Assembly (NCBI GenBank): GCA_002702705.1
Contig: PABH01000042.1
Location: 124,001-188,000 of the forward strand
DNA: 64,000 nt
Source of the DNA: Anaerolineaceae bacterium
GTDB lineage: Bacteria > Chloroflexota > Anaerolineae > Anaerolineales > Anaerolineaceae
Direction: 5' to 3'
Under the pieces are notes generated by a model that worked only from the letters and a program-made list of their open reading frames with translations, ran no database searches and had not been told where the DNA came from. Shown piece after piece: positions 13,431 to 63,697 of the stretch; within the stretch, counting starts at the first letter, position 1, and the number at the start of each line of letters is the position of its first letter. Made by a program: the position numbers and the translations under genes.

Positions 13431-14339
13431 ATGGGATTTAATGTTATGGGTGAATTTGCCGCACTGATCACAGCCTTTTTATGGGCAGGAACATCGATTT
13501 TTTTCACATTTGCCGGTAAACAAATCGGTTCACAAGTCTTAAACCGGGTTCGTCTCACACTGGCAGTTTTGTTATTAAGCCTGACACATTGGTTTGTTAT
13601 CGGAAATCCTTTTCCAATAGACGCTTCACCGGAACGGTGGTTATGGTTAGGTTTATCCGGTTTAATCGGACTGGTAATTGGAGATGCTCTTTTATTCCGT
13701 TCTTTTATTTTAATTGGTCACCGGATTGCCATGTTAATCATGTCTTTGGTTCCTGCAATCAGCACCATTTTTGCCTGGTTACTATTAGGAGAAACATTAC
13801 TTTTCACCCAAATTTTGGGTATTGGCTTAACCATATTTGGGGTGGCACTGGTGGTAACGGATTGTAAAAATAAAACACCCACTCAGATTAATCTAAAAGA
13901 TCACTGGTTAGGGCTTTTACTTGCCTTCGGCGGTGCAGTAGGTCAGGCTGTTGGTTTAATTTACGCAAAAAAAGGATTGGTAGATAATTATTCAGCCCTT
14001 TCCGGTGTTTTAATCCGGATGATTAGTGCCATGTTAATTGTTTGGATTTTGGCATTATTCACAAAACAGGTAAAAAAGACTTTCATCCAACTAAAAAATC
14101 ACCCGGACGCAATTAAATTTATTACAGCGGGAGCCATCAGTGGGCCATTTTTAGGGGTCTGGTTATCCCTTATTGCAGTGCAGTCCTCCAAAGTGGGTAT
14201 CGCCTCTACCCTAATGGCCTTAACCCCCATTTTCCATTTACCCATTGGTAAGTATCTTCTTAAAGAAAAGATCACAATCCAGGCCATTCTGGGTACAGTG
14301 GTTGCTATGGTCGGAATCGCAATTATTTTTATATGTTAA
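13431..14339 (+). CDS. EamA/DMT-family transporter
   Basis: This 302-residue protein has ten predicted membrane segments in two EamA repeats. The first (about 5-140) includes ALITAFLWAGTSIFF and ISTIFAWLLLGETLLFTQILGIGLTIFG; the second (about 155-300) ends IFHLPIGKYLLKEKITIQAILGTVVAMVGIAII. The paired E-x-L/K..QILG pattern at the end of each repeat is characteristic. Such carriers export amino acids or other small metabolites; the substrate is unknown. Two starts are possible: ATG at 13431 (GAAACGAG upstream) and ATG at 13446 (GGGATTT upstream); both leave the first helix intact. Confidence 0.87.
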   Translation: MGFNVMGEFAALITAFLWAGTSIFFTFAGKQIGSQVLNRVRLTLAVLLLSLTHWFVIGNPFPIDASPERWLWLGLSGLIGLVIGDALLFRSFILIGHRIAMLIMSLVPAISTIFAWLLLGETLLFTQILGIGLTIFGVALVVTDCKNKTPTQINLKDHWLGLLLAFGGAVGQAVGLIYAKKGLVDNYSALSGVLIRMISAMLIVWILALFTKQVKKTFIQLKNHPDAIKFITAGAISGPFLGVWLSLIAVQSSKVGIASTLMALTPIFHLPIGKYLLKEKITIQAILGTVVAMVGIAIIFIC

Positions 14340-16716: not shown

Positions 16717-18867
16717 ATGTTAAGTGTTCTTGCTACTTTGCCAATGATCTCCGCTAGCATAACTGGCGCTATTACTGCCTTTTATCTCGTTTTAATTTTA
16801 AAGAAGCCAGACCATAAGATATATTTAAGATTTGCAATTACCGTGATGATGGTACTGTTTTACAGTTTAGCCTCCGTCGGTTTATATTCCAGTGCGGAAA
16901 TCCTGGATGCCCTGATTTGGCGAAGAATACAAACGACAGCACTAAGCCTGTTCACAATTTTCTTTTTGGATTTCATTTTTATTTATATTAACTATCAAAA
17001 AAGATCATTCGTCCGTATCATCCAAATCAGTGCATTAATCTCCATTGTTTTACAAATTGTGATAACAAATGATCTCACCTGGAAATTTTCAAATGAAAAA
17101 CTCACTACCATTCAGATCTTTAATCAAACAGCAACCTTCCCCGATATTTCTCCAGGAATCATTTCGATTATTTTATTTGCGATTGGTATTATTGCATATT
17201 TATATGTTTTGTTTATCACATTCAAACATCGTGCGTTGATATCAGGTTATAAACAAAATTTTATTGTCGCATCGGTCATTGTCTTTTTCTTGGGATTCCT
17301 GAATGATACATTAATCAGCTTTAATGTCATCCAATCAATTTATATGCTATCCATAAGTCTCTTAATTTTAATTTCTCTTATTACTTACTCCATGATAGAC
17401 ACAATAATAGTCGATGCAAGTTTAAAACAACAACTCGTAACCGCAAATCAAAAACTGGAAGAAATAACCAGCCAGTTAGAACACCGCATACAGAACCGCA
17501 CGATTGAGTTACAAGACCAGGCTGAATTTTTCCAATCCTTAATTAATAATAATCCGGTTGGTATTGCAATTATGGATAATAACGAAAAGATCATTCAAAC
17601 CAACGCCATGTTTACTGAAATCTTTGGATATGAGCAGCACGAAACACCGGGACAAGCTTTAGATAGTTTAATCGCTCCTCCAGAACGTTATGAAGCAGCA
17701 GTGGGTTTTACACAGCAAATAATGAATTTGGAAAAAATCAATGTTGTTGATGTGCGCAAGACAAAAAAAGGAGACCGGGTAACAGTAGAAATATTAGGTG
17801 TACCCGTGGTTGTTAAAGGGAAAAAAGTTGGGGGACTTGGGATTTACCAGAATATCACCAACCGCATAACTGCAGAAAAACAACTCAAAGAAAATGAAGC
17901 CAGTTATCGTAGTTTGTTTTATGATTCGCCCATCCCATTAATCGAAGAGGATTACAGCGAAGCCAGGAAAATATTACTCGAACTCAAAGAAGAGGGTATT
18001 CAGAATATCCATGAATTCTTGGTCCAGCATCCGGAACGATTAAAAGAAATTCTGTTAAAAATAAAAATTATTAAAGTAAACAATGCCGCCATAATGTTAT
18101 ATAAAGCCAAAAACAAGTTTGAACTACTTTCGAATTTAAATTTCATCATCCCTGAATCAGCCTATCCATTAATAGCAAACCAATTGGAAACCCTCTTATC
18201 AGGATCAGCACAAGTGGTATCAGAACTTGATAACCAGGATCTAAATGGGGAAATAATTCACGCCATCATTCATATCACCATCGCACCAGGATATGAAGAC
18301 AGCTGGGAAAAAGTATTTGTATCGATTATTGATAATACGGAAAGAAAAATAAACCAGCAATATCTTGAATACTTATCATCACATGATCAATTAACCGGAC
18401 TGGCCAATCGTAATTTATTATTTGAACGACTGCAACATGCCATCAAAGTAGCTCATCGAAATGAGACTTCAATCGCCGTGTTTTTTATTGACTTGGATGG
18501 CTTTAAGACCATCAACGATCTTCATGGCCATTATATTGGAGATCAATTATTGATTCAGGCTGCCAAACGGTTAACCGCTAGTCTTCGTGATTCCGACACA
18601 ATTTCTCGGGTAGGTGGAGATGAATTTGTATTAATTCTTGAAAATTTTAAAGAACCAGAAATCTTACCGATGGTTGCCGATAAAATTCTAAAAATCATTT
18701 CTCGCCCTTATGAAATTGAAGATTTACGCTGTCAGATTACCACCAGCATCGGTATCAGCCTTTATCCAAAACACAGTAAAAACCCGGAAGAATTGATTTC
18801 TCTTGCCGATACCGCCATGTATGAAGCAAAACACAAAGGCAAAAATCAGTATTATATAGCACATTAA
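16717..18867 (+). CDS. membrane sensor diguanylate cyclase (7TM-PAS-PAS-GGDEF)
   Basis: This 716-residue protein begins with about seven membrane helices (residues 5-235), then a coiled coil (KLEEITSQLEHRIQNRTIELQDQ). Two PAS-like regions follow (about 270-385, with NPVGIAIMDNNEKIIQTN; about 395-545) and a GGDEF domain (about 550-715). SRVGGDEFVLIL holds an intact GGDEF active site, and the product-inhibition site RxxD is present (RDSD, five residues before GGDEF). No EAL domain is seen, so it should make cyclic-di-GMP from GTP at the inner membrane. A TATAAT at 16704-16709 ends only seven bases before the ATG and no Shine-Dalgarno is visible, so the message may be leaderless. Confidence 0.9.
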   Translation: MLSVLATLPMISASITGAITAFYLVLILKKPDHKIYLRFAITVMMVLFYSLASVGLYSSAEILDALIWRRIQTTALSLFTIFFLDFIFIYINYQKRSFVRIIQISALISIVLQIVITNDLTWKFSNEKLTTIQIFNQTATFPDISPGIISIILFAIGIIAYLYVLFITFKHRALISGYKQNFIVASVIVFFLGFLNDTLISFNVIQSIYMLSISLLILISLITYSMIDTIIVDASLKQQLVTANQKLEEITSQLEHRIQNRTIELQDQAEFFQSLINNNPVGIAIMDNNEKIIQTNAMFTEIFGYEQHETPGQALDSLIAPPERYEAAVGFTQQIMNLEKINVVDVRKTKKGDRVTVEILGVPVVVKGKKVGGLGIYQNITNRITAEKQLKENEASYRSLFYDSPIPLIEEDYSEARKILLELKEEGIQNIHEFLVQHPERLKEILLKIKIIKVNNAAIMLYKAKNKFELLSNLNFIIPESAYPLIANQLETLLSGSAQVVSELDNQDLNGEIIHAIIHITIAPGYEDSWEKVFVSIIDNTERKINQQYLEYLSSHDQLTGLANRNLLFERLQHAIKVAHRNETSIAVFFIDLDGFKTINDLHGHYIGDQLLIQAAKRLTASLRDSDTISRVGGDEFVLILENFKEPEILPMVADKILKIISRPYEIEDLRCQITTSIGISLYPKHSKNPEELISLADTAMYEAKHKGKNQYYIAH

Positions 18868-47988: not shown

Positions 47989-48828
47989 TTATAGTTTGGT
48001 TACCTTGACCCAATCAACCAGCATTTTGGCTTCATTATTTTGAACCAATCTCACAGTTTCTTCAGGAATTCCCAAGTAGGGAAAATTGACACCATTTGTT
48101 TTATACGGATATGTACCCCCAAGGGCACAATTTAGAATTAGATATTTACTGTCACTGAATACCCATCTACCGTAATAATCAATCATAGGCGGTGTTACAC
48201 GGTATAGGAGTTCCCTATCAATTCGGAATACAAAACCGTCTGAAGGGGTGAGTTCTACTGAATAAATGTGCCATGTAGCTGTAGAATGATCTGCTGAAAA
48301 ATACTTTTTATTAACGATTGGTGTTTCTCCGAAATAACCTGGGCCATGGACAGCTACACTTGCCCAATCGGTTTCACCAACATTTTCCATAATATCAATC
48401 TCACCACATTGAGGCCAGGGTCCTTTTGAACCTAAAGACCAAAAAGCCGGCCAAAGGCCACTTCCAGCAGATAGTAAAATACGGGCAGAAACAACACCAT
48501 AAGTAAATTGAAACTTACCTCGTGTGTTGATTCTGCCTGAAATAAAATCAAAAGACTTCCCTTGAGGACTCTGAAATCCAGATTGAAAACGGGGGTGGAT
48601 CACAAGAATGCCGTTTGCCTCTTTATTTCCAGGACTCAAATAAATCGTTTCCTCAGAATCGACATAAGCCTGTTGTTCATTGTTTACAACCTGTCCGGTT
48701 ACTTCCACATTCCAATTAGATCGGTTGAGATCTGAAGAAGTAAAATCATCAAAAAAAATAGTTTCTGTGTCGTTGTTATTAATGTAATTTTGTTTGGTAT
48801 TCATTTCAATGGAAACTTCAGTTTTCAC
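47989..48828 (-). CDS. GH16 beta-glucanase without signal peptide
   Basis: The roughly 279-residue GH16 enzyme has the catalytic motif GEIDIMENVG (nucleophile and acid/base Glu in ExDxxE), preceded by the substrate-cleft pattern GLWPAFWSLG. It lacks any N-terminal hydrophobic segment, so it is predicted cytoplasmic, unlike its neighbour. It starts with GTG at 48828, one base-pair step after the upstream GH16 stop; an ATG eight codons in (48804) is an alternative. GH16 enzymes cut beta-1,3 or mixed-linkage glucans. It probably trims imported oligosaccharides for the phosphorylase. Confidence 0.88.
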   Translation of the reverse strand: MKTEVSIEMNTKQNYINNNDTETIFFDDFTSSDLNRSNWNVEVTGQVVNNEQQAYVDSEETIYLSPGNKEANGILVIHPRFQSGFQSPQGKSFDFISGRINTRGKFQFTYGVVSARILLSAGSGLWPAFWSLGSKGPWPQCGEIDIMENVGETDWASVAVHGPGYFGETPIVNKKYFSADHSTATWHIYSVELTPSDGFVFRIDRELLYRVTPPMIDYYGRWVFSDSKYLILNCALGGTYPYKTNGVNFPYLGIPEETVRLVQNNEAKMLVDWVKVTKL

Positions 48829-48830
48829 CT

Positions 48831-49661
48831 TTAATTGTTAATTTTTTCGTAAACACGAACATAATCAATCTGATATTGCGCTGGAAAAACTGTGTCAGGA
48901 CTGATTAAACCACCTAATGTACCACCAAGGGCAAGGTTAAAGATAATGAAAAATGGTTGGTCAAATGGCCAATCTCTTATACCCACATCGCTTTTAGAAA
49001 CCGAATGGTATTGAACCCCATCATAAAACCAATTAATTTGTTCAGCATCCCATTCAATAGCATAGGTATGGAAATCGTCAGCGATATTGTATGTTTGGCG
49101 GTTCCATTGAGTAAAGCCCAATGCGCCAGAATAACCAGGCCCGTGTAAGGTACCCAAAATCACATCGGGATCTTTTCCAACATATTCCATGATGTCAATT
49201 TCACCACAATCGGGCCAACCAACCTCAGTAATATTGTCTCCAAGCATCCAAAATGCGGGCCACATACCTGCACCCTCTGGTACTTTAATGCGCGCTTCAA
49301 TACGCCCATATTGAAAACTCTGTTTTCCCTGTGTCTTTAATCTAGCTGATGTAAATTCAAAGCCGCCAGAATCATTCTCTTCTTTTCTTGCTTCAATTAC
49401 CAGATTCCCTTTTTCCAATCGAGCATTTTCTTTAAGATCAGTATAAATCTGCGCTTCTCCATTACCCCAACCACCACCGCCTAAATCATAGTTCCAATTA
49501 TCGGAATTAATCTGTTTACCATCAAATTCATCATGCCAGACCAAATTCCATCCTTCAGGTACATCAATCGGGGTGGTGGCTGTGGTTTGGCCACAACCTG
49601 TTAAGGTTTGCAAAAAGACAGCACAAAAGGTAATCCAGCTAAAAAATATGCGAAATTTCAT
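48831..49661 (-). CDS. GH16 endo-beta-glucanase, lipoprotein
   Basis: The 276-residue enzyme has a lipoprotein signal peptide with lipobox LTGC (Cys about residue 23). The GH16_3-type domain carries LVWHDEFDG, WNYDLGGGGWGNGE, GAGMWPAFWMLG and the catalytic GEIDIMEYVG. This subgroup is typical of laminarinases. As a lipoprotein it would cut polymeric beta-1,3-glucan at the outer face of the membrane to yield fragments for the ABC importer encoded just before it. The gene starts eight bases after the permease stop. Confidence 0.92.
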   Translation of the reverse strand: MKFRIFFSWITFCAVFLQTLTGCGQTTATTPIDVPEGWNLVWHDEFDGKQINSDNWNYDLGGGGWGNGEAQIYTDLKENARLEKGNLVIEARKEENDSGGFEFTSARLKTQGKQSFQYGRIEARIKVPEGAGMWPAFWMLGDNITEVGWPDCGEIDIMEYVGKDPDVILGTLHGPGYSGALGFTQWNRQTYNIADDFHTYAIEWDAEQINWFYDGVQYHSVSKSDVGIRDWPFDQPFFIIFNLALGGTLGGLISPDTVFPAQYQIDYVRVYEKINN

Positions 49662-49669
49662 GAGTCTTG

Positions 49670-50515
49670 TTATCCTTTAACAGAACCTGAAGTCAAACCG
49701 GAAATAATATACCGCTGTAAAAAGAGGAACAGTATCAACATAGGTAATGTCAACATTAATACTGCCGCAGCTAAATTAGGCCAGTTACTTCCATAAACAC
49801 CCTGAAATACGATTAAACCTCGTGTGATCGGGTAATATTTTTCACTGGTCAGGTAAATCGTTGGTGCAATAATCTCATTCCAAATGCCAATTGCATGTAA
49901 TACAACTACGGTGGCAATGGCTGGTTTAATTAAAGGAATAACAATTGACCATACAAACCGGAAATACCCGCAGCCATCCAATGCTGCCGCCTCATCAAGT
50001 TCCTTTGGCACGGATTTAATATAATTCACAAGAATAACGATGCCAATCGGATTAACAATGAACAACATGATATATCCAATCGGATTGTTATACAAACCCA
50101 AATTTAAAATAAGTTGGAATTGTGGAATTAAAGCCGGAGGCAAAAACAAAGCGATCACAAACAATGTTAACAATGGTCCGGAAAATTTTACGTAATTACG
50201 GGCGATCGGAAAAGATACAAAAACCGCGGTTATGATATAGATCGTTGTTGCAGAAACGGTGTAGATTAGTGAATTAAACAGATACTTGGGAAAATTTGCT
50301 TTTGTCCACGCTTCAACAAAATTTTGAAAATGCAATTCTCTCGCTAATCCAGTGGCATCCTTCATAAAAGACGGCATTGTTTTTAATGAGGTGTTTACTA
50401 AAACCAATAAAGGTCCCAAGTAAATAATGGCAAAAATGATCAAGATCAGATAGGATCCAATTCTGCCCCAATTTACCGGTTTTTTATTCCTAACGGATTT
50501 TGTCATAGTACTCAT
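49670..50515 (-). CDS. carbohydrate ABC permease, MalG type
   Basis: This 281-residue permease has about six membrane helices and the EAA coupling loop in LDEAAALDGCGYFRFVWSIVIPLIKPAIATVVV. The C-terminal part (NWPNLAAAVLMLTLPMLILFLFLQRYIISGLTSGSVKG) matches the MalG/CUT1 permease end. It works with the MalF-type partner and the binding protein. No ATPase gene is in the operon, so a shared MsmK/MalK-type ATPase elsewhere is presumably used. Confidence 0.92.
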   Translation of the reverse strand: MSTMTKSVRNKKPVNWGRIGSYLILIIFAIIYLGPLLVLVNTSLKTMPSFMKDATGLARELHFQNFVEAWTKANFPKYLFNSLIYTVSATTIYIITAVFVSFPIARNYVKFSGPLLTLFVIALFLPPALIPQFQLILNLGLYNNPIGYIMLFIVNPIGIVILVNYIKSVPKELDEAAALDGCGYFRFVWSIVIPLIKPAIATVVVLHAIGIWNEIIAPTIYLTSEKYYPITRGLIVFQGVYGSNWPNLAAAVLMLTLPMLILFLFLQRYIISGLTSGSVKG

Positions 50516-51447
50516 CCCATGATCCTCTCTTCTCTACGTTTCAATATATAATTCACACCCAAGCCAATGACCAACACCAGCAAAAACAGAATGATCGAAG
50601 CAGCAGCAGCATACCCCTGCCTGAAGCTTGAGGTCACGCTACCTGAAGTTTGACCAAAACCAACGGCATAAATTAAGTAACCTAATACTTGGGTTCCATT
50701 CCTATAACCTAAAAGGACTAAGAAGAGCTGCCAGGCTTGAAGGCTGCCAATAATGTTTAAAGTAAGGTTGGTATTTACACTCGGTGTCAACAATGGCCAG
50801 GTTACATTTGCAAAAACCTGCCACGAACTGGCACCATCAATTCGTGCCGCCTCATACATTTCAGCACCAATGGTCTGTAAACCGGAGAGGAAAATAATCA
50901 TGGTTGTACCCATGTTCGCCCAAATCTGGATAACGATAACCCAGGCAAAGGCTTCTGCGGGTTGACCACCTAAAAATTCAGATTGTGCGCCAAACAGCTC
51001 AAGGATTCTTGCCATTGGGCCACCTAGAGGAAACAAGAAGAGAGACCAAATCAAACCTTGAATAACTGCGCCAAGAATTACTGGCATAAAATAAAGGGTA
51101 CGAAAAATATTTCGCCCCTTGAGATTTTGATTAATGATCACTGCAACCAACAGTCCTAATCCAAATTGAATTGTAGTCACAAAGAAACAAAATATAAGTG
51201 TGCGTCCTAGAGCTGCGAAGTTATCTTTGGCTGCCTGGCCCATGAAAAGGAATTCTTTATAGTTATCTAACCCTATCCAATCAATCTGAGCACCCTTCAA
51301 ACCCGTCGCGTTTGTAAAAGAGTAAACAGATGTAGCGATAGATGGTCCGAGGGCAATCAACACATAAAAGAAAATGCCAGGTAAGAGCAGTAAATAAGGT
51401 GTCCATCGAGATCGTTTAGATCCAAAATAATATGCCATGATATCCAA
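50512..51447 (-). CDS. carbohydrate ABC permease, MalF type
   Basis: This 311-residue CUT1 permease has about six helices (first: YLLLLPGIFFYVLIALGPSI) and the EAA loop MYEAARIDGASSWQVFANVTWPLLTPS. It overlaps the MalG-type gene by four bases. Together they form the channel for the imported beta-glucan fragments suggested by the neighbours. It starts 67 bases after the binding-protein gene, separated by a perfect hairpin that probably lowers permease expression relative to the binding protein. Confidence 0.93.
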   Translation of the reverse strand: MDIMAYYFGSKRSRWTPYLLLLPGIFFYVLIALGPSIATSVYSFTNATGLKGAQIDWIGLDNYKEFLFMGQAAKDNFAALGRTLIFCFFVTTIQFGLGLLVAVIINQNLKGRNIFRTLYFMPVILGAVIQGLIWSLFLFPLGGPMARILELFGAQSEFLGGQPAEAFAWVIVIQIWANMGTTMIIFLSGLQTIGAEMYEAARIDGASSWQVFANVTWPLLTPSVNTNLTLNIIGSLQAWQLFLVLLGYRNGTQVLGYLIYAVGFGQTSGSVTSSFRQGYAAAASIILFLLVLVIGLGVNYILKRREERIMG

Positions 51448-51514: not shown

Positions 51515-52837
51515 CTACTTTACAGCATCAAGACCGGATTGTAAATCAGCTTGAACTTTATCTGCAAGCACTTTGGGGTCATCATCCGTACCAAAAGGTT
51601 TGAAGTATGAAGCCCAAGGATTTGCGAATTGTCCAGCACCTTTCGGGGCAATCCAGTATTGTTCATATCCTACCCGGAAATTCTCCAAATAAGGAGCAAC
51701 CTCTTTACCGATGGCTGTATTCAATTGCGCTGTCGGCTGGGTTGGAATGAAACCAACTGCATCAACGAATGCTTGATAATTTTCAGGATCAGAAAATTCT
51801 GCCAAATACAACATTGCTGCATCTTTATTGGGTGTGTTGGCTGCTACCGCCCAACCCTGATCATATTTACCAAACAAGTACTTATTATCGTCTGCATTAT
51901 CTGAACCGGGGAATGGGATGTATCCCCATTCAAAAGAAGGTTGTGCTTCTTCGATTGCAGGACCGTACCAGGTTCCACCAGGGAACATCGCCACAGCACC
52001 AGAAGCAAAACGTCCGGGTGCAGCATCGCCACCAATACCACTCGCGCCTTCTTCCATCATATCGCGTGCATAAACCTGCATTTTCTCCCACATTTCAAGA
52101 GATTTTGCATCATTCCACTTTATGGTTCCATTCCAAAGTCCCTCTACAAGGGCTTCTTGATCAGGATAAATTGAACCAATTAAGCCGTAGGCTCCAACAA
52201 AAATCGGCCAACCATCTTTACCGCCAGCGGTCATACAGGGGATATCGATTGATTTGAAGGTTTCACAGGCAGTAACAAGTTCACTCCAAGTGGTAGGAAC
52301 TTTGACGTTGTTCGCAGTGAACAAGTCTTTATTGTAATAAATGCCACTGTAGGAGACACGTCCAAGATTGATCTCATAAACTTTTCCATTATATGTTCCT
52401 GCATCTTGGATCGCTGCTTCATCGTAGTTTTTAACAAAAGGCTGATCACTCAAATCCATTAATAGACCAGCATCAATTAACTGCTGCCAGTTCGGCGCAT
52501 CTACTTGTGACATATAAGGTTGAGCTGCATTGGCAAACCCAAACATATCAACCACATCAACGTCATTTGCTGTTAAACGAGTCTGGGTAACTGTACTCAG
52601 ATCATTGGCATTAACGACTGACATATCTACAGTAATGTAGGGATATTTTTCTTCAAATTTCTTGTTAAATTCCTCCATAAACGCCACCATCGGTGGATTT
52701 TGGTGAACCAGTACCTTGAGCGTTAGGTCTTCGGGTGTATCAGAACCAGTGCTTGGGGCAGGGGTAGATGCACATGCACTCAAGATCATCGACAAGACCA
52801 TTAGTAAGGCCAACATGGAATACATTTTTTTAAACAT
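51515..52837 (-). CDS. sugar ABC transporter substrate-binding lipoprotein
   Basis: The 440-residue family 1 binding protein has lipobox ILSAC (Cys about residue 22), an N-terminal lobe with LTLKVLVHQNPPMVAFMEEFNKKFEEKYPYI, and the conserved FASGAVAMFPGGTWYGP in the hinge region. CUT1 binding proteins of this type capture oligosaccharides. The two GH16 genes downstream suggest beta-glucan oligomers. GGAG precedes the ATG. It is first in the importer operon, and a LacI-type operator sits about 126 bases upstream of its start. Confidence 0.94.
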   Translation of the reverse strand: MFKKMYSMLALLMVLSMILSACASTPAPSTGSDTPEDLTLKVLVHQNPPMVAFMEEFNKKFEEKYPYITVDMSVVNANDLSTVTQTRLTANDVDVVDMFGFANAAQPYMSQVDAPNWQQLIDAGLLMDLSDQPFVKNYDEAAIQDAGTYNGKVYEINLGRVSYSGIYYNKDLFTANNVKVPTTWSELVTACETFKSIDIPCMTAGGKDGWPIFVGAYGLIGSIYPDQEALVEGLWNGTIKWNDAKSLEMWEKMQVYARDMMEEGASGIGGDAAPGRFASGAVAMFPGGTWYGPAIEEAQPSFEWGYIPFPGSDNADDNKYLFGKYDQGWAVAANTPNKDAAMLYLAEFSDPENYQAFVDAVGFIPTQPTAQLNTAIGKEVAPYLENFRVGYEQYWIAPKGAGQFANPWASYFKPFGTDDDPKVLADKVQADLQSGLDAVK

Positions 52838-52962: not shown

Positions 52963-52976
52963 TGAAAGCGCTCTCA
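52963..52976. promoter_or_regulatory. LacI/GalR-type operator upstream of the sugar importer
   Basis: TGAAAGCGCTCTCA fits the LacI-family consensus TGnAAnCGnTnnCA fully, with the central CG and flanking A/T runs. It lies in the 173-base gap between the LacI domain gene and the binding-protein gene. Confidence 0.8.
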
Positions 52977-53010: not shown

Positions 53011-53217
53011 TTAAGAAACCGGATTCTTATTTTTAGGAATACGTTTTGATGCTAAATTGCGTGCTGTTTGATTTGGCTGATAGCCGGACTCTTTGATCAC
53101 TTTCTTAACACGTTCACGGGTCTGAGGACGCACACCAGGATAATCATTAATCACTCGAGAAGCGGTTGCTAACGATACGCCAGCTAATTTTGCGACTTCC
53201 TTTAAAGTGATTGTCAT
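53011..53217 (-). CDS. stand-alone LacI-family DNA-binding domain
   Basis: The whole 68-residue protein is the LacI helix-turn-helix plus hinge helix: TLKEVAKLAGVSLATASRVI (residues 4-23) and hinge GYQPNQTARNLASKR (about 45-60), then eight residues and a stop. Normal LacI regulators have another ~270 residues of sugar-binding sensor. The downstream 173 bases contain no such domain in any frame, so this is not a simple frameshift. The neighbouring giant kinase contains the missing LacI sensor fold without an HTH. It may be a truncated remnant or a minimal dimeric repressor. Its own operator lies 28 bases upstream. Confidence 0.85.
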   Translation of the reverse strand: MTITLKEVAKLAGVSLATASRVINDYPGVRPQTRERVKKVIKESGYQPNQTARNLASKRIPKNKNPVS

Positions 53218-53605
53218 AATCCTTCTGCGACCTCATTTTCATTCTGAAAACGCTTACATTTGTAAATCTATACTATAGGATTCAACAATCGCAGACATGG
53301 AGAAAAGAGAGATGATTATGGACATTTCATTGAATTTTTGAAATACCTGAAAAAAACTAATTCTTCACAGGGTGCACTTAATATACGATCAGGAATATTC
53401 CACCAGGCATTAGCGATACCTGACTTGATGGAACACGATTTTTGATCAAACGATAATCAAATACCTTAATATGTTTAACATTCGAACTTCATCAGCATAT
53501 TGCTTCAGAAATTGAGACGATTTCGGGACCTATTACCCCAGAGTTTTTATATAAAAATAAAAAACGATTATATTGTCACTAGATTAATAACCAGGGAAAA
53601 ACAAC
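53218..53605 (-). other. 388-base gap upstream of the small LacI gene
   Basis: Apart from the operator at 53245-53258 I see no gene. The region is AT-rich with no open frame of note, no tRNA and no recognisable LacI sensor fragment. It separates the hybrid kinase stop codon from the small LacI gene. Confidence 0.5.
53245..53258. promoter_or_regulatory. LacI/GalR-type operator upstream of the small LacI gene
   Basis: TGAAAACGCTTACA also matches TGnAAnCGnTnnCA at every fixed position. Its place just before the LacI-domain gene suggests autoregulation. Confidence 0.75.
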
Positions 53606-56600
53606 TTAACCTGAAGAACGGAAATCTTCCGGTGACATGCCTGTTTCACGATGGAATATTCTGCTAAAATAACCGCTGTCCGTAAAACCTACTAAAAAAG
53701 CAATTTCGGTAATACTTTTTTGGCTTGTTTTAATTAATTGTTTTGCCTGATTAATCCTGAATCTTTGAATGTACTTTATCGGGGTAATTGCCATTTCCTG
53801 TCTAAAACAAAAAGTTAAGTAATCTTCAGAAATGTTTACATATTGGGCAATATCTTTACGTGTAATTTGCTCTGCATAGTGTTCCTGGATAAAAGCCATA
53901 GCCTGCCTAACCAACCTTTGTGCTGCTTGACTCAAATTCCGTTTGCGATCCAGGGCACTACTGATATGCGCTGCTGTTTCTTTAAGGCTAAACATACCTT
54001 TGTTCAGCACGGTAGTCACTCCCTGATTGATGCGGTCCATATCTGATTCTGTTAAAAGTTTCCCCGTCACAACGATTACAGGGATATCTCGTGTTCTTTC
54101 ATTTGACCGCATAAATTCTAAAACCTCAAAACCATCCATGACGGGCATCTGTAAATCCAATAAAACAACATCGACTTTTTCTTGTTTAAGGATATCCAAG
54201 GCAATATTTCCATTTTGAGCTTTTAAAACACGGTAAGAAGAAGATTGTGATTGCACAACGCGGGCAAGCATCTCGACTGCATCCGGATTATCGTCAACAA
54301 TAAGATAGTTAATGACTGGTTGTTCTGAATCAATCATTAATCTGACATGGTCAAAGGTTTGTGTCAGGTCAGAAAGATCAATGGGTTTTGTAAGATAATC
54401 CAGATTTAATATTCCCTCCCCATTTGGCGATGAGGAATAAAACATAATCGGAATGCCTATTGCTAAATGATTGCTTTTAATTCCTTTAAGCGTGTTCCAT
54501 CCCATCTCAGATTGAATGCTTACATCCAAAATAATTGCGTCCGGGGGTGACTTGACCAACATGGTTTGCCACTCTTTTTTTCGTTCCATCATGAACTTTT
54601 GCACATTGATTCCGGTATAAGTTAAAAGATCACATAAATTGGCACAGGTATTTTCATGAGTTAATAAGACCATCACAGTTTGTTGAGAAACTGATTGGTT
54701 GTGCTCATTCGATATTTGTTTTGCTGGGGGTTGTACAGTTGGTAAGTTGAAATAAAAACAAGAACCCTCACCTTCTAATCCAGTTGACTCCACACCAATC
54801 GTTCCATCATGCATTTCAATGAGTATCTTACTAATTGCTAATCCCAAACCCAACCCCGGATAACCGCGTGAAATGCTGCTTTCTAAGCGGCGAAATTCAC
54901 CAAAAATTACCGCCTGATCTTCAGGGCGAATTCCCAATCCAGTATCACATACACGCACGGATACAGTATTAATCCCTGCTTCAACGAATAATGAAATTTC
55001 ACCTTCAGCAGTAAATTTGACTGCATTATTAATAAAATTTAAGACAACCTGACGTAGACGGGTACTATCGCCCCAAACCCAAGGGCCGGTTTCTGGTAAA
55101 TTTGCCTTCCAGGAAAGTCCTTTGTCGGTCGTTAATTGGGCTCCGCTATCAATAACCATTCGAAGCGTTGCGCTTAAATCAATTAATTCCATATTCAGCC
55201 GTAGTTGACCTGCATCCCTATTAGCCAGATCAAGCACATCACCAATCAATCCACCCAGGTGTTGAGCATAAGCATTAATTCGCTCAACATCTCTCTGAAC
55301 AGGCTCGGGAAGAAGTAATTTTTCCTCAGCGCTTTCATCCAATAAGATTCCACTTAATCCGACGATTAAATTTAATGGTGTACGTAATTCGTGGCTTATC
55401 GTTGACAAAAAACGACTCTTCAATCGATCAGCTTCTTCAGCACGTTGTCGTTCCGAGTTAGCTTGCTGATATAACCTGGTGGAGTTAAAAGCACCGCCCA
55501 ATTGCTGAACGATAGAACCATAAAGATCAAAATTCTCTACACCGAATCCCACAAAGCCAATTTGTTTTGTTGGTGTAAGAATAGGAATTAAAGTTAAAAT
55601 AAATGGCTGAGATTCCTCAATTATTTCGGATGGAGGAAATTCTTGAGTCTTAAAACGGATTGGGTTTTGTTCCACATCCAATACATTGCGCAAAATACTC
55701 CAGGCAATAGGGTTTTCCCCATCCGATTCAAACAGGACTAACATTGCTGTATGAATGTCTAAATCCGGTAAGTGGGTTGCTAAAATTTCATAAATCTGAG
55801 ATTCATCAAGAACATTAAGTAATCTTGCGGTTAACAAACTCAAACGACTGGTTGTCCACCGTTCATTAATCACATATTGTTGGTGATGGTGCTGTAAATG
55901 GGCACTGATCACAAGTCTCGCATCACTTAAGATTTCATTCACCAAATTGGATGAAAAAGAACTGGAAAACGACACTGCTCCCCAATTTTTTTCTAAGAGT
56001 GAGATTGCAACTTGCCATATATGGGTGTCATCATCTCCGGATACGACACGATCAAGCAGCCTCGTTAATGTGTTATGAAATTCTTGACGATCACCGGAAT
56101 AGATTGTTTTTGTAAAAGAATTAACTAATTGTTCGCTAAAAGCGTAACATTCATCTTCAGTTAAGTTGTAGGTTTGATTTATGATACTTTCTGCAATGTT
56201 CTGAGCCAGTTCCGAGGTTTTTTTATCGGAAGATAAAAAATGAGATGATTTCTCAAATTTATTACTAGTAGAAGAAATCTTTTGTATACCACAACCACAA
56301 GATTCACGAACCACCAAACGAGCATTTATTTTTACAATTTCTGGTAATGAGATACCCTCTTCCAGGTGGTGAAAAAGCAGTTCAACAGCACGATAACCAA
56401 TACTAAACAAAGGGACATGAATACTGGTTAAGCCGGGTTTATGAATCGCGCCATCTAATCGATTATCAAAACCAATAACTGCAATATCCTGTGGAACTCG
56501 TAATCCAACTTCAGATAAAGCCTTCATTGCACCTAAAGCAGATTCATCATTACTTGCAAGCACAGCCGAAAATTTAGCCCCGGTTTTAATAATTTTCATC

Positions 56601-57217
56601 ATGGCATCATAACCGCCACTAAAAACATGGTTCCCATAAGCGATTAGATCTGGATTTCCATCCAGGTTGTAATTATCACGCGCAGATTGGTATGCTCTTA
56701 GACGTTCTCCGGTGTCCCCCATTAAATCCATAGGAGAACCCGCAATAAAAGCAATTTGTTTATGGCCATGACCTATTAAATGGTAGATTGCCTCATGAAT
56801 GCCGCCTTCATTGTCAATAACTATTTTTGAACCCGTCTCACCTAATCCGATAAATAAAGTTGGATGACCATGTTTTACGAACTCTTTTACATATTCTGTC
56901 CGAGTTTGTGAATGAAGAGGATTTGCGATAATTAATCCATCGGTATTCCAAGGACCAATCGGGACAAAATCATGATCGGTAGAAATAAACGGCCAGGCAG
57001 GCCGAAGAGGATCTGTTGGGCTGGCTGAAGGTCCAATTCCACAACCTAATAATAGATTACAACCAAGATCTTGGGCAGCCCGACTGATTCCTCGATAAAT
57101 TGGTGCCAGGTAACTTAGATTTGTTGCCGTTCTATAAAATTGCCAACCAGCTAAAACTCCAATTGTCGGTTTATCGTGACGGTAAACTTGGTTGGTTTGT
57201 GGATTGTTTTGACGCAT
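53606..57217 (-). CDS. LacI-sensor hybrid histidine kinase with two receivers and AraC output
   Basis: This 1203-residue cytoplasmic protein has, in order: a LacI-type periplasmic-binding-fold sensor (about 17-310, ending RESCGCG) without a helix-turn-helix; a helical/GAF-like region (about 340-580); HisKA with SHELRTP (His609); a HATPase domain (LRQVVLNFINNAVKF, VCDTGLGI, GLGLGLAI); a degenerate first receiver (about 848-946, Asp898); a canonical receiver (about 970-1085, Asp1021 in LLDLQMP); and an AraC domain (about 1100-1203). It combines sugar sensing, phosphorelay and DNA binding in one chain, comparable to Bacteroidetes hybrid two-component systems but with an intracellular LacI sensor. 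It lies upstream of the beta-glucan genes and probably activates them. Confidence 0.92.
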   Translation of the reverse strand: MRQNNPQTNQVYRHDKPTIGVLAGWQFYRTATNLSYLAPIYRGISRAAQDLGCNLLLGCGIGPSASPTDPLRPAWPFISTDHDFVPIGPWNTDGLIIANPLHSQTRTEYVKEFVKHGHPTLFIGLGETGSKIVIDNEGGIHEAIYHLIGHGHKQIAFIAGSPMDLMGDTGERLRAYQSARDNYNLDGNPDLIAYGNHVFSGGYDAMMKIIKTGAKFSAVLASNDESALGAMKALSEVGLRVPQDIAVIGFDNRLDGAIHKPGLTSIHVPLFSIGYRAVELLFHHLEEGISLPEIVKINARLVVRESCGCGIQKISSTSNKFEKSSHFLSSDKKTSELAQNIAESIINQTYNLTEDECYAFSEQLVNSFTKTIYSGDRQEFHNTLTRLLDRVVSGDDDTHIWQVAISLLEKNWGAVSFSSSFSSNLVNEILSDARLVISAHLQHHHQQYVINERWTTSRLSLLTARLLNVLDESQIYEILATHLPDLDIHTAMLVLFESDGENPIAWSILRNVLDVEQNPIRFKTQEFPPSEIIEESQPFILTLIPILTPTKQIGFVGFGVENFDLYGSIVQQLGGAFNSTRLYQQANSERQRAEEADRLKSRFLSTISHELRTPLNLIVGLSGILLDESAEEKLLLPEPVQRDVERINAYAQHLGGLIGDVLDLANRDAGQLRLNMELIDLSATLRMVIDSGAQLTTDKGLSWKANLPETGPWVWGDSTRLRQVVLNFINNAVKFTAEGEISLFVEAGINTVSVRVCDTGLGIRPEDQAVIFGEFRRLESSISRGYPGLGLGLAISKILIEMHDGTIGVESTGLEGEGSCFYFNLPTVQPPAKQISNEHNQSVSQQTVMVLLTHENTCANLCDLLTYTGINVQKFMMERKKEWQTMLVKSPPDAIILDVSIQSEMGWNTLKGIKSNHLAIGIPIMFYSSSPNGEGILNLDYLTKPIDLSDLTQTFDHVRLMIDSEQPVINYLIVDDNPDAVEMLARVVQSQSSSYRVLKAQNGNIALDILKQEKVDVVLLDLQMPVMDGFEVLEFMRSNERTRDIPVIVVTGKLLTESDMDRINQGVTTVLNKGMFSLKETAAHISSALDRKRNLSQAAQRLVRQAMAFIQEHYAEQITRKDIAQYVNISEDYLTFCFRQEMAITPIKYIQRFRINQAKQLIKTSQKSITEIAFLVGFTDSGYFSRIFHRETGMSPEDFRSSG

Positions 57218-60975: not shown

Positions 60976-62079
60976 ATGGAAATCAAAAAGTTTCTGGATT
61001 TACCCCACGGAAGACTCAATTTTCCGGTATACCTGCCGGACGCCACGTATGGATTGGTACGAGCGGCAGATGCCGCAGACCTGGAAAATGCCGAAATTGA
61101 AGCTGTGGTAATGAACACCTTTCACCTGATGCAAAAACCCGGCACCACAACCATTCAGGCTTTAGGCGGACTGCACAATATGAGTGGTTGGCAAAGGCCC
61201 ATCATTACCGATTCCGGCGGTTTTCAGGCCTATTCATTAATTCGACAAAACCCGAAATTTGGCAGCATGTCCAGTAAAGGCATCAGTTTTCAGCCGGAAG
61301 GTTCCAGCCGGAAATATCAGCTAACCCCGGAAAAAAGTGTGCAGCTGCAGTTGGCCTACGGGGCAGATGTCGTCATTTGCCTGGATGATTGCACCCATGT
61401 TGATTCCTCGGATGAGGTACAAGAAATCTCTGTTGATCGTACCATCGCTTGGGCCAAACGGTCTCGAGAAACCTTTGATAAGTTATTAAAGGATAAAAAA
61501 TATGCCAAAGGGCAAAAACCACTGCTGTTTGGTGTGATCCAGGGCGGCGGCATCTTTGAAGAACGAAAACGATGTGCTGAAGCCTTACTCGAAATCGGAT
61601 TTGATGGTTTCGGATATGGTGGTTGGCCTCTGGATGGGGAAGGAAATCTTTTAACCGATATTCTTAAATACACCCGTTCGCTTATTCCTCCTGAATATCC
61701 AATGCATGCCCTCGGCATTGGCCATCCTTATAACGTCCTGGCATGTTATCAATTGGGTTATGGCATTTTTGACTGTGCCATGCCCACTCGTGATGCTCGC
61801 CATGGTCGCTTGTATAGTTTTGTGAACCCAAGTGATGCCCCTCAGGCCGGGTTAACCGGTAAATGGTTAAAATATATTTACATTAATGATGAAGAACATA
61901 TTAAAGCCAACCTGCCCATTACCCAGGGTTGTGATTGTCTGACCTGTACCCGTTTTTCACGGGGATATTTACATCATATTTTTAAAATGAATGACAGCCT
62001 TTATCACAGGTTAGCCACAATCCATAATTTGCGTTTCATGACCCAACTTTGTGATCGGATCCGTTTATTAGAATTATGA
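60976..62079 (+). CDS. divergent tRNA-guanine transglycosylase (TGT) family protein
   Basis: This 367-residue TIM-barrel protein retains the TGT catalytic frame: base Asp79 in ITDSGGFQ, nucleophile Asp266 in FDCAMPTRDARHG, and the zinc site Cys319, Cys321, Cys324 and His350 (CDCLTC...H). The base-recognition loop, GGLAVGE in E. coli TGT, reads GYGGWPLDGE (213-222), and the usual FDECTPYP is CLDDCTHVD. It should exchange a guanine for a 7-deazaguanine-type base in RNA, but base and RNA target may differ from tRNA queuosine. ATG at 60976 is chosen (GGTG eight bases upstream); TTG 60955 and ATG 60970 are alternatives. It heads an operon with rRNA methyltransferases, and a weak promoter TTGCGA-17-CATAAT ends at 60963. 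Confidence 0.87.
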   Translation: MEIKKFLDLPHGRLNFPVYLPDATYGLVRAADAADLENAEIEAVVMNTFHLMQKPGTTTIQALGGLHNMSGWQRPIITDSGGFQAYSLIRQNPKFGSMSSKGISFQPEGSSRKYQLTPEKSVQLQLAYGADVVICLDDCTHVDSSDEVQEISVDRTIAWAKRSRETFDKLLKDKKYAKGQKPLLFGVIQGGGIFEERKRCAEALLEIGFDGFGYGGWPLDGEGNLLTDILKYTRSLIPPEYPMHALGIGHPYNVLACYQLGYGIFDCAMPTRDARHGRLYSFVNPSDAPQAGLTGKWLKYIYINDEEHIKANLPITQGCDCLTCTRFSRGYLHHIFKMNDSLYHRLATIHNLRFMTQLCDRIRLLEL

Positions 62080-62879
62080 AGAAAGATATAGAAGAATTAA
62101 TAGAAACCGTAAAATCAAGTAACAAATACCGCAATATCCACACCGGTTTGGTAGAACATATTGCGGAAGCCGAATTAAATAAAGGCCGTTCGTGGAAAGA
62201 TACAGTTAAAGCGGTGCGCAGTAAACTGCACCAGGTTGGGGCTGCATACCAACCCCAACCCATCCATTATGAACAGTTGGTAGAGATCATGGAAACTCTG
62301 CCAAAGGATCTCCATCACCCTGCAGTTAAAGCGTTTTGCCAACAGGCTATGCAGCAGCATGCTTCAACTCGAGAACGTCTGCCTTTTTTGGAGCAGTTTT
62401 ATCAACAGCTCTTTTCTCCTTTGGCACCTATCGATTCATTAATGGATGTAGCCTGTGGCCTTAATCCACTTGCCCTGCCGTGGATGTCCCTTCCCGTTGA
62501 ATGTAAAATCACGGTTTGTGATATTTACACTGACCAGATTGAGTTTTTAAACCGGTTTTTTGATTATTTTTCAATAAACGGCAAAGCCGGTTTTTGTGAT
62601 CTGACCTTAACTATTCCCAAAGAAGCCGTCCAAGTTGCTTTGGTTTTAAAAACAATTCCCTGCCTGGAACAGGTTGATAAGGAAATTGGGGCCCGGCTTT
62701 TGGCTGGTTTACCCGCTGAAAACCTGATCGTAAGTTTCCCCTCTAAATCTTTAGGTGGCAAAGTAAAAGGTATGCGTCAGCATTACGCAGCACATTTTAA
62801 TCAAATGGTAGCCTTATTTCCCTGGCAAGTTACCTTACTTCCGTTTGATAATGAAGATGTATACCTGATTCAAAAATGA
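62076..62879 (+). CDS. Arm/Rmt-family 16S rRNA (guanine1405-N7)-methyltransferase
   Basis: This 267-residue SAM-dependent enzyme matches the aminoglycoside-resistance methyltransferases ArmA/RmtB (about 250 residues) along its length: a helical N-terminal domain (1-90), HASTRERL (95-102), SAM motif DVACGLNPLAL (124-134), CDI, LKTIPCLEQ (191-199) and SFPSKSLGGKVKGM (220-233). All conserved catalytic-site motifs of the family are present. Known relatives methylate G1405 N7 of 16S rRNA in the 30S decoding site, giving resistance to kanamycin- and gentamicin-type aminoglycosides. Here the gene is chromosomal in a non-producer-like setting, overlapping TGT upstream (ATGA) and a paralog downstream. 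Confidence 0.88.
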   Translation: MKKDIEELIETVKSSNKYRNIHTGLVEHIAEAELNKGRSWKDTVKAVRSKLHQVGAAYQPQPIHYEQLVEIMETLPKDLHHPAVKAFCQQAMQQHASTRERLPFLEQFYQQLFSPLAPIDSLMDVACGLNPLALPWMSLPVECKITVCDIYTDQIEFLNRFFDYFSINGKAGFCDLTLTIPKEAVQVALVLKTIPCLEQVDKEIGARLLAGLPAENLIVSFPSKSLGGKVKGMRQHYAAHFNQMVALFPWQVTLLPFDNEDVYLIQK

Positions 62880-63697
62880 GCAAACAAAATCTATCCCAAC
62901 CGGAAATAGAAGATTTAGTAAACACCCTGGTTAATTCCAAAAAATATGCATCTTTGGTTTTGCCAAAAGAAACCGTGCGGGATTTAATTCTACAAGAGCT
63001 TCCGCGTCACAAACAAGTGAAACAGGCCGTACAAGCCGTTCGGAAAAAACTGCATAATGTCGTTGCTCCCTATCTGGGTGACCCGGATTATCTTCAATCA
63101 GAGATAACTTTAACCCGCCTCTACCAGGATAAAGACCAGGATCTCGTCAAAGAATATTGCCTGGAAATTTTAGACCAGCACGCCTCTACCAAAGAACGTT
63201 TGGCCATTTTGGATGAATTTTATCCTCGTCTTTTTGAAGTCACAGGCATACCAACCAGTATTTTGGATTTAGCCTGCGGTTTACATCCTTTTGGTTTACC
63301 CTGGATGAATTTACCAGCCGCAACCACTTATTTCGCTTATGACCTGCACCAGCCCCGCATCAACCTTATTAATGCTTTTTTTAAACTGGAAAACCGCCCT
63401 CCGAATGGAGTGTATCAAGATATCCTTGTTCAACCTCCGACACAACAAGCAGATGTAGCTTTCTTTTTTAAGGAAGCACATCGTTTTGAACAGCGCCAAC
63501 ATGGATGTAATCGGGATTTTTGGTTGGCTTTGCAGGTTAAGTTTTTACTGGTATCCTTACCTATAGCCAGCCTGAGTGGAAAACATGATCTGACCGATAA
63601 ACACCGGCGGTTGGTTTATGAAACCATCCAGGGTTTTCATTGGGAGGTAACCGAAATCCCCTTTAAGAACGAACTGGTATTTTGCATTCGGAAATGA
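62876..63697 (+). CDS. divergent Arm/Rmt-family methyltransferase paralog
   Basis: This 273-residue protein is a second Arm/Rmt-like enzyme, fused by an ATGA overlap to the first. It keeps HASTKERL (102-109) and the SAM motif DLACGLHPFGL (131-141), but the K-T/L-[IL]-P-x-L-E-x motif reads FFKEAHRFEQ (197-206), and the target-side motif SFP[ST][KR]SL[GS]G reads SLPIASLSG (227-235), with the following K-G-M lost. The protein is probably still able to bind SAM but changed at the RNA-contacting and catalytic region. It could methylate another nucleotide, act as a partner subunit, or be degenerating. The intact frame and normal length argue against decay. Confidence 0.82.
   Translation: MSKQNLSQPEIEDLVNTLVNSKKYASLVLPKETVRDLILQELPRHKQVKQAVQAVRKKLHNVVAPYLGDPDYLQSEITLTRLYQDKDQDLVKEYCLEILDQHASTKERLAILDEFYPRLFEVTGIPTSILDLACGLHPFGLPWMNLPAATTYFAYDLHQPRINLINAFFKLENRPPNGVYQDILVQPPTQQADVAFFFKEAHRFEQRQHGCNRDFWLALQVKFLLVSLPIASLSGKHDLTDKHRRLVYETIQGFHWEVTEIPFKNELVFCIRK

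Follow-up and report, generated by a model that had tools for sequence, protein, structure and literature searches.

Genes at the locus

We analysed a window of 64,000 nucleotides from an Anaerolineaceae bacterium (contig PABH01000042.1), in which the gene for a 68-residue protein, here called mini-LacI, lies on the minus strand behind the gene for a 1203-residue hybrid kinase, separated from it by a gap of 388 bp and followed, after a further 173 bp, by an operon for a binding protein, two permeases, two GH16 enzymes and a 1151-residue protein (Table 1). A first-pass annotation, made from the letters of the window, had described the small protein as the LacI helix-turn-helix (HTH) and hinge alone; its coordinates, strand and length proved exact, and LacI HTH family PF00356 is the only Pfam match (residues 4–49, 72 bits, cut-off 27). 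No C-terminal effector domain (PF00532, PF13377, PF13407) was detected in mini-LacI by Pfam and the open reading frame ends at 68 residues; the definition of the LacI family in the available part of PMC4052901 requires such a domain. The home genome holds 12 LacI HTHs, among which mini-LacI is the sole short frame (73 residues from stop to stop; the others 338–412).

The monomer model of mini-LacI, with a mean predicted local distance difference test score (pLDDT) of 74, contains predicted helices at residues 5–12, 16–23 and 31–44 and, at low confidence, a fourth (hinge) helix at 50–57. Among proteins of solved structure, its sequence relatives belong to the LacI family and include the 62-residue lac headpieces, and a Foldseek search with the model returned the same relatives at a best E-value of 1.6e-3, with none at 0.001 or better; against the lac headpiece itself the E-value was weak (5e-3) and the probability 1.00.

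The first-pass annotation had also read the neighbouring protein as a LacI-type sensor without LacI HTH, joined to HisKA, HATPase, two receivers and an AraC domain, and Pfam bears this out: Peripla_BP_3 matches residues 146–307 (104 bits), HisKA 600–670, HATPase_c 716–827, Response_reg two stretches (best 972–1074) and HTH_18 1123–1201, with no Pfam match to a LacI HTH. A model of residues 1–346 matches LacI-family cores (best E-value among the Foldseek best hits 1.6e-20), and the sensor is thus predicted to have a LacI-type sugar-binding fold. His609 and Asp1021 of the second receiver are invariant in an alignment of 11 orthologues, in which, by eye, the second receiver looks canonical and the first (about residues 850–960) degenerate, perhaps being a pseudo-receiver. 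Neither a signal peptide nor a membrane segment was noticed by eye.

Conservation of the mini-LacI gene

Related genomes were searched for HTH-only LacI genes beside such kinases, as the first-pass annotation had proposed. A family survey with at least 121 genomes listed gave, among the matches listed, three other short LacI HTH frames of 69, 69 and 73 residues (71, 68 and 56% identity), each adjoining a kinase orthologue; the operon is common to 11 genomes, with the mini-LacI gene in four, without it in seven and with an intervening LacI gene in none. Scanning genome contigs with the kinase alignment returned 77 loci, 48 of which were mapped (in 46 the kinase scored 150 bits or more, some of these being fragments). 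From a class-level profile search of 396 genomes, ten frames shorter than 200 residues were among the matches listed, the home gene included. Eight of the other nine were examined: seven lie directly behind a kinase of this type, three of them with a different transporter downstream, and the frame at L203 belongs to a longer LacI cut off by the contig edge. The frame in G438, also at a contig edge, was left out, and two of the seven mapped frames stand on contigs already in the kinase scan. Among the phylum-level matches listed, none of the 12 kinase loci examined has a mini-LacI gene.

Altogether an HTH-only gene stands directly behind the kinase in 18 non-redundant loci, or 19 with L134, in which the kinase is frameshifted, and it is kept where the transporter behind differs (L198, L199, L118/L204). 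Of 75 kinase loci, 18 carry the gene and 41 show a next gene that is not mini-LacI; the other 16 were kept out of the count, most of these having little sequence behind the kinase: the next gene is not shown in L054, L084, L106, L109, L113, L115, L116, L117, L123 and L239, the kinases are broken or partial in L127 and L134–L137, and L131 carries a half-length LacI (half-LacI). L129, which has a half-LacI 3.7 kb away, belongs to the 41. Where a contig appeared under two names (L073/L092, L074/L112, L075/L099, L202/L125, L204/L118), it entered the count a single time; the near-identical L098 and L100 were both kept. A full-length LacI gene at this position in orthologous loci, which according to the first-pass annotation would make the small gene a recent truncation, was found in none of the 59 loci with a visible next gene. 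Together with the 19 short genes, this rules such a truncation out.

All 19 mini proteins end within about 5 to 25 residues of the hinge, three of them in AAQRSRKQS; some genes start with GTG or TTG and for a few the longest frame was taken, so that the starts are uncertain. The nonsynonymous rate (dN) is far below the synonymous rate (dS) in all 12 pairs compared, with dS saturated in most; in the L093/L094 pair dN is 0.03 and dS 0.48. These rates indicate that the gene is under purifying selection. By tblastn, no eroded mini copies were found behind kinases without the gene, half-LacIs excepted. The mini-LacI gene is real and old; a relative is also present in the cultured Ornatilinea apprima. 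On a tree of 69 kinases it is scattered (17 rows, seven changes, at least six forced by supported branches). On the kinase side we also observed that L125, titled as the cyanobacterium Pleurocapsa minor, groups with Anaerolineae kinases and is probably a contaminating bin.

Operators and promoter geometry

Two LacI-type operators had been reported to flank the small gene, and we find both, each with one mismatch to TGRAARCGYTTYCA. In the 5.9-Mb home genome the pattern TGWRARCGYTYWCA occurs in two places, which are these flanking sites. Since TGWRARCGYTYWCA reversed likewise matches twice on each strand (places not listed), two per genome is the chance level; that both lie within 300 bp around the mini-LacI gene is not chance. 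The two-place result disfavours an operator of a global regulator, a point that is less clear in other genomes.

Operators were searched between the kinase and the next gene with TGRAARCGYTTYCA, allowing two mismatches and requiring the central CG. An initial consensus had missed the operators of Arg-type mini proteins and was widened to TGRAARCGYTTYCA after reading the upstream sequences of mini-LacI loci, which leaves only L198–L201 and L205 as mini-LacI loci that test it free of bias; four of these five have a site (L198, L199, L200 and L205, not L201). A central-CG palindrome stands in the gap in 17 of the 18 mini-LacI loci versus 0 of the 41 without the gene, in line with the earlier proposal that binding sites for the HTH piece are retained, and 21 sites were observed versus 0.29 expected from a background of 1287 kb. 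Within the kinase clade the count is 17/18 versus 0/27 (Fisher 1.6e-11, ignoring relatedness), and all five independent contrasts point in the same direction.

Upstream of the operator lies a direct-repeat box, which the first-pass annotation had not reported. It scores 25 of 29 in the home locus versus at most 18 in 20 shuffles, and its core has one exact match in the home genome, at this locus. The direct repeat TATGAATTGTCCATG-N7-CGCTTTTCTCCATG with spacer 7 is the best match in the gaps of all 18 mini-LacI loci, although L200 and L201 score no higher than the best of 20 shuffles and L199 exceeds it by one only; among mini-less loci, 16 of 41 have a spacer-7 box above their own shuffles. 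We infer that the box is the AraC site of the kinase. The operator starts 36–38 bp after the box in 12 of the 18 mini-LacI loci and 31 bp after it in two, and in L119, L200 and L201 weaker central-CG sites follow it at 37, 37 and 38 bp. By eye, a –10-like hexamer is placed about 20 bp after the box, between box and operator, so that the putative operator would cover about +4 to +18.

Recognition specificity

According to the available part of PMC2978694, the LacI code relates HTH residues 15 and 16 to half-site bases –5 and –4 within the TVSR group. The recognition helix reads TASR in 18 mini proteins and AASR in one, versus TVSR in 55 of 64 full-length relatives, and the code is therefore used here by analogy. 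With L134 and L201 excluded, G occupies position –5 in 1 of 14 Leu-Ala half-sites, in 5 of 8 Leu-Thr and Leu-Ser half-sites, and in 18 of 20 Arg-x half-sites. By this analogy, the change of base –5 with residues 15–16 agrees with mini-LacI as the binder. The search expression matched 11 of the 12 HTHs in the home genome, and of these only mini-LacI has the Leu-Ala pair.

Origin of the two pieces

Where mini-LacI came from was approached through both pieces. The HTH offers too few columns for a firm tree. A first HTH tree with 45 of the 64 full-length LacIs, the other 19 having escaped the search expression, grouped the mini proteins with two half-LacIs at a support of 90/87, and a fuller tree with all 64 (three changes, 56 columns) did not recover this grouping; a single origin of the mini HTH is not claimed, since the grouping was lost once all were included. 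TASR, present in 18 of 19 mini proteins versus 1 of 64 full-length LacIs, hints at common descent. In the sensor tree, which covers 12 of 17 named kinases (five lack the motif used for cutting), the kinase sensors come out as one clade, separate from the LacIs with HTHs nearest mini-LacI, with long branches flagged. By BLAST, 9 of 10 kinase sensors score best against precisely that LacI subset, which had been collected by HTH similarity. Sensor tree and BLAST ranks thus disagree on whether one LacI was split into two, as the first-pass annotation had it.

The half-LacIs (L131:9959-10705 and L129:7943-8521) accompany the deepest kinase lineage of the clade. The one in L131 has 179 residues, in which Pfam finds the HTH and the rest amounts, by eye, to about one sensor subdomain; both loci have a box-like sequence, TACAAT and a GGGAGCGCTCCC palindrome. 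These half-LacIs may be an intermediate stage toward mini-LacI.

Operon and feature coordinates

The 1151-residue protein is identified as a GH149 1,3-beta-glucan phosphorylase, and the operon is therefore assigned to a beta-1,3-glucan (laminarin-like) substrate, which goes, like the box, beyond the first-pass annotation. In L108 (Longilinea arvoryzae) about 3.5 kb with oppositely oriented open reading frames lie between the kinase end at 13555 and the binding protein at 17025.

Table 1. Features of the locus, in positions of the 64,000-nucleotide window
Feature	Position	Strand	Basis
Hybrid kinase, 1203 residues: LacI-type sensor, HisKA, HATPase, two receivers, AraC HTH	53606..57217	-	Pfam; sensor model
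Direct-repeat box AATGAAATGTCCAT..CTTTTCTCCATG, proposed site of the kinase AraC domain	53296..53331	-	repeat score; kinase ownership inferred
Possible -10 hexamer TAGTAT	53270..53275	-	by eye; 20 bp after box, as in relatives
Operator 1 (putative) TGTAAGCGTTTTCA, 28-41 bp before mini-LacI start codon	53245..53258	-	pattern match; starts 37 bp after box
mini-LacI, 68 residues, LacI HTH and hinge, no effector domain	53011..53217	-	Pfam PF00356, relatives, dN/dS, model helices
Operator 2 (putative) TGAGAGCGCTTTCA, between mini-LacI and binding-protein gene	52963..52976	-	pattern match
Sugar ATP-binding cassette (ABC) transporter binding protein	51515..52837	-	Pfam SBP_bac_8
ABC permease	50512..51447	-	Pfam BPD_transp_1
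ABC permease	49670..50515	-	Pfam BPD_transp_1
GH16 beta-glucanase	48831..49661	-	Pfam PF00722, 100.7 bits
GH16 beta-glucanase	47989..48828	-	Pfam PF00722, 52 bits
GH149 1,3-beta-glucan phosphorylase, 1151 residues	44331..47786	-	NCBIfam NF058639, 1596 bits, cut-off 1150

Discussion

We propose, with moderate confidence, a promoter under two regulators, in which the kinase activates the operon and mini-LacI acts as a sensor-less local negative-feedback brake; judged from sequence comparison, local repression combined with kinase activation, as the first-pass annotation had suggested, appears to be the best fit. In its favour are the reality and conservation of the small gene, the selection acting on it, the joint occurrence of gene and operator, and the constant promoter geometry. 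The LacI-type domain of the kinase would sense a sugar, probably a beta-1,3-gluco-oligosaccharide imported by the adjacent transporter, and phosphate would be relayed within one chain to the second receiver, upon which the AraC domain would activate the operon from the direct-repeat box just upstream of the –10 hexamer. As product of the first operon gene, mini-LacI would bind the central-CG operators at the transcription start and, here, another site ahead of the binding-protein gene; two copies would pair solely by their hinge helices on the DNA. Made when the kinase fires, it would accumulate with operon output and thereby cap or pulse expression, which is what renders it a local negative-feedback brake, and having no sensor it would not be inducible. 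The hinge of free lac headpieces is disordered and becomes helical on the operator, as the available part of PMC13069688 reports; by analogy, such folding would suit an easily released brake rather than a lock. Autoregulation is usual in the LacI family, 72% of the studied regulators being autoregulated according to the available part of PMC4052901, and a non-inducible brake would be the unusual feature here.

Several observations weigh against this proposal. The mini-LacI gene is absent from 41 of the 59 loci with a visible next gene and is therefore dispensable. A headpiece by itself is expected to have a weaker hold on DNA than a complete repressor. Of seven other genomes, six have one to four matches elsewhere, which makes the site next to the gene one of two to five places; in the seventh, G175, the site next to the gene does not match the pattern used. 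Corrected for relatedness by independent contrasts, the co-occurrence of gene and site has p = 0.0625. When three mismatches are allowed, the kinase clade gives 18/18 mini-LacI versus 6/27 mini-less loci with 2.8 sites expected, and two of these six sites, in L100 and L133, are at the promoter position. L100 and its near twin L098 belong to a sister lineage that lost the gene; their site looks decayed and keeps the same offset, which speaks for the proposal, and their sister L097 keeps gene and site. The clearest exception is L133, which lacks the gene but has a good palindrome, TGAGAGCGCTCTCT, about 137 bp downstream of the kinase gene, where the diagnostic offset places it. Moreover, L201 has only a weak site, L099 lacks one at the position of the promoter, and in L128 an Arg-Ala pair goes with G at –5, the specificity rule resting on few changes.

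Instead of braking, mini-LacI could occupy the operators of a full-length, sugar-responsive LacI and relieve its repression once the kinase has fired, as a microprotein-like antagonist. Being the DNA-binding part only, it would be suited to such competition, the class has full-length LacIs whose HTHs resemble its own (up to 81% over 54 residues), 11 other LacI-family genes are present in the home genome, and L133 has an operator-like site without the small gene. The sites nevertheless come and go with the mini-LacI gene, none of the other home-genome HTHs read has Leu-Ala, and the operator pattern is found nowhere else there, and we consider this competition rather unlikely. The L133 palindrome equally bears on the idea that the palindromes belong to some other DNA-binding protein, with mini-LacI just happening to lie between them, which would draw on the fact that most LacI-family members bind central-CG palindromes (available part of PMC4052901); with sites that co-occur with the gene and change along with its recognition helix, we give it only a slim chance.

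It is also improbable, to our assessment, that the two genes form a LacI in two chains, in which the kinase sensor, being able to dimerise, would bind the free headpiece and thereby put its contact with DNA under sugar control; the extension in which this sensor also drives the phosphorelay and a single ligand event would switch the promoter from repressor-held to AraC-driven is given the same low likelihood. All mappable HTH-only genes do lie directly behind a kinase of this type, even with a different transporter, and the BLAST ranks of both pieces point to one LacI subset, yet the kinase works without the small gene in the loci that lack it, the hinge ends, as far as can be judged from sequence, before any sensor contact, and the sensor tree does not put both pieces together. 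Least probable of all is a decaying relic, the remnant with little function of a LacI repressor displaced by the kinase: the patchy presence with its changes on the kinase tree and the half-LacIs beside the deepest kinases would suit decay, whereas the low dN, the short form shared by 19 loci, the operators kept at fixed spacing, the lack of eroded copies by tblastn in mini-less gaps and the absence of full-length LacI from this position speak strongly against it.

The proposed brake can be set beside known systems. For LacI, the textbook repressor, binding to DNA depends on both dimerisation and allostery from the core domain. With LacI/GalR repressors such as CcpA, LacI and PurR, mini-LacI shares HTH and hinge (PF00356), a central-CG palindrome and a site at its own gene; unlike them it has no effector and core dimerisation domain and no ligand response of its own, and unlike most full-length relatives it has TASR or AASR in place of TVSR. 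The engineered lac headpiece (62 residues; PDB 1cjg, 1l1m, 2bjc) is of the same extent, aligned over residues 4–60, and differs in being a laboratory fragment, whereas mini-LacI is a conserved natural gene. In E. coli XylR, a LacI-type sugar domain likewise controls an AraC-type output, as the kinase joins the two, but XylR is not known to have kinase or receiver domains or an HTH-only partner. Like the Bacteroides hybrid two-component systems described in the available part of PMC11253607, the kinase combines sensor kinase, receiver and regulator output in one chain next to glycan genes; those systems are described as membrane sensors, in contrast to the LacI-type sensor here.

Only the DNA grip is kept, in many lineages and with operators at fixed promoter spacing, and sugar sensing falls to the neighbouring one-protein phosphorelay. 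Should the headpiece repress without help, the locus would offer a natural setting in which to ask how much hinge helices achieve unaided, along with a ligand-blind repressor of minimal size and a compact circuit of activator and brake for glycan use in Chloroflexota. Among the open-licence PMC papers listed, we found no description of an HTH-only LacI regulator or of this kinase type.

Other genes in the window

On the plus strand, downstream of a tgt-like gene, lie two tandem relatives of Rmt/FmrO 16S rRNA methyltransferases (62076–62879 and 62876–63697), which match Pfam PF07091 with 169 and 127 bits and NCBIfam Rmt_gen with 203 and 171 bits, below its cut-off of 250.

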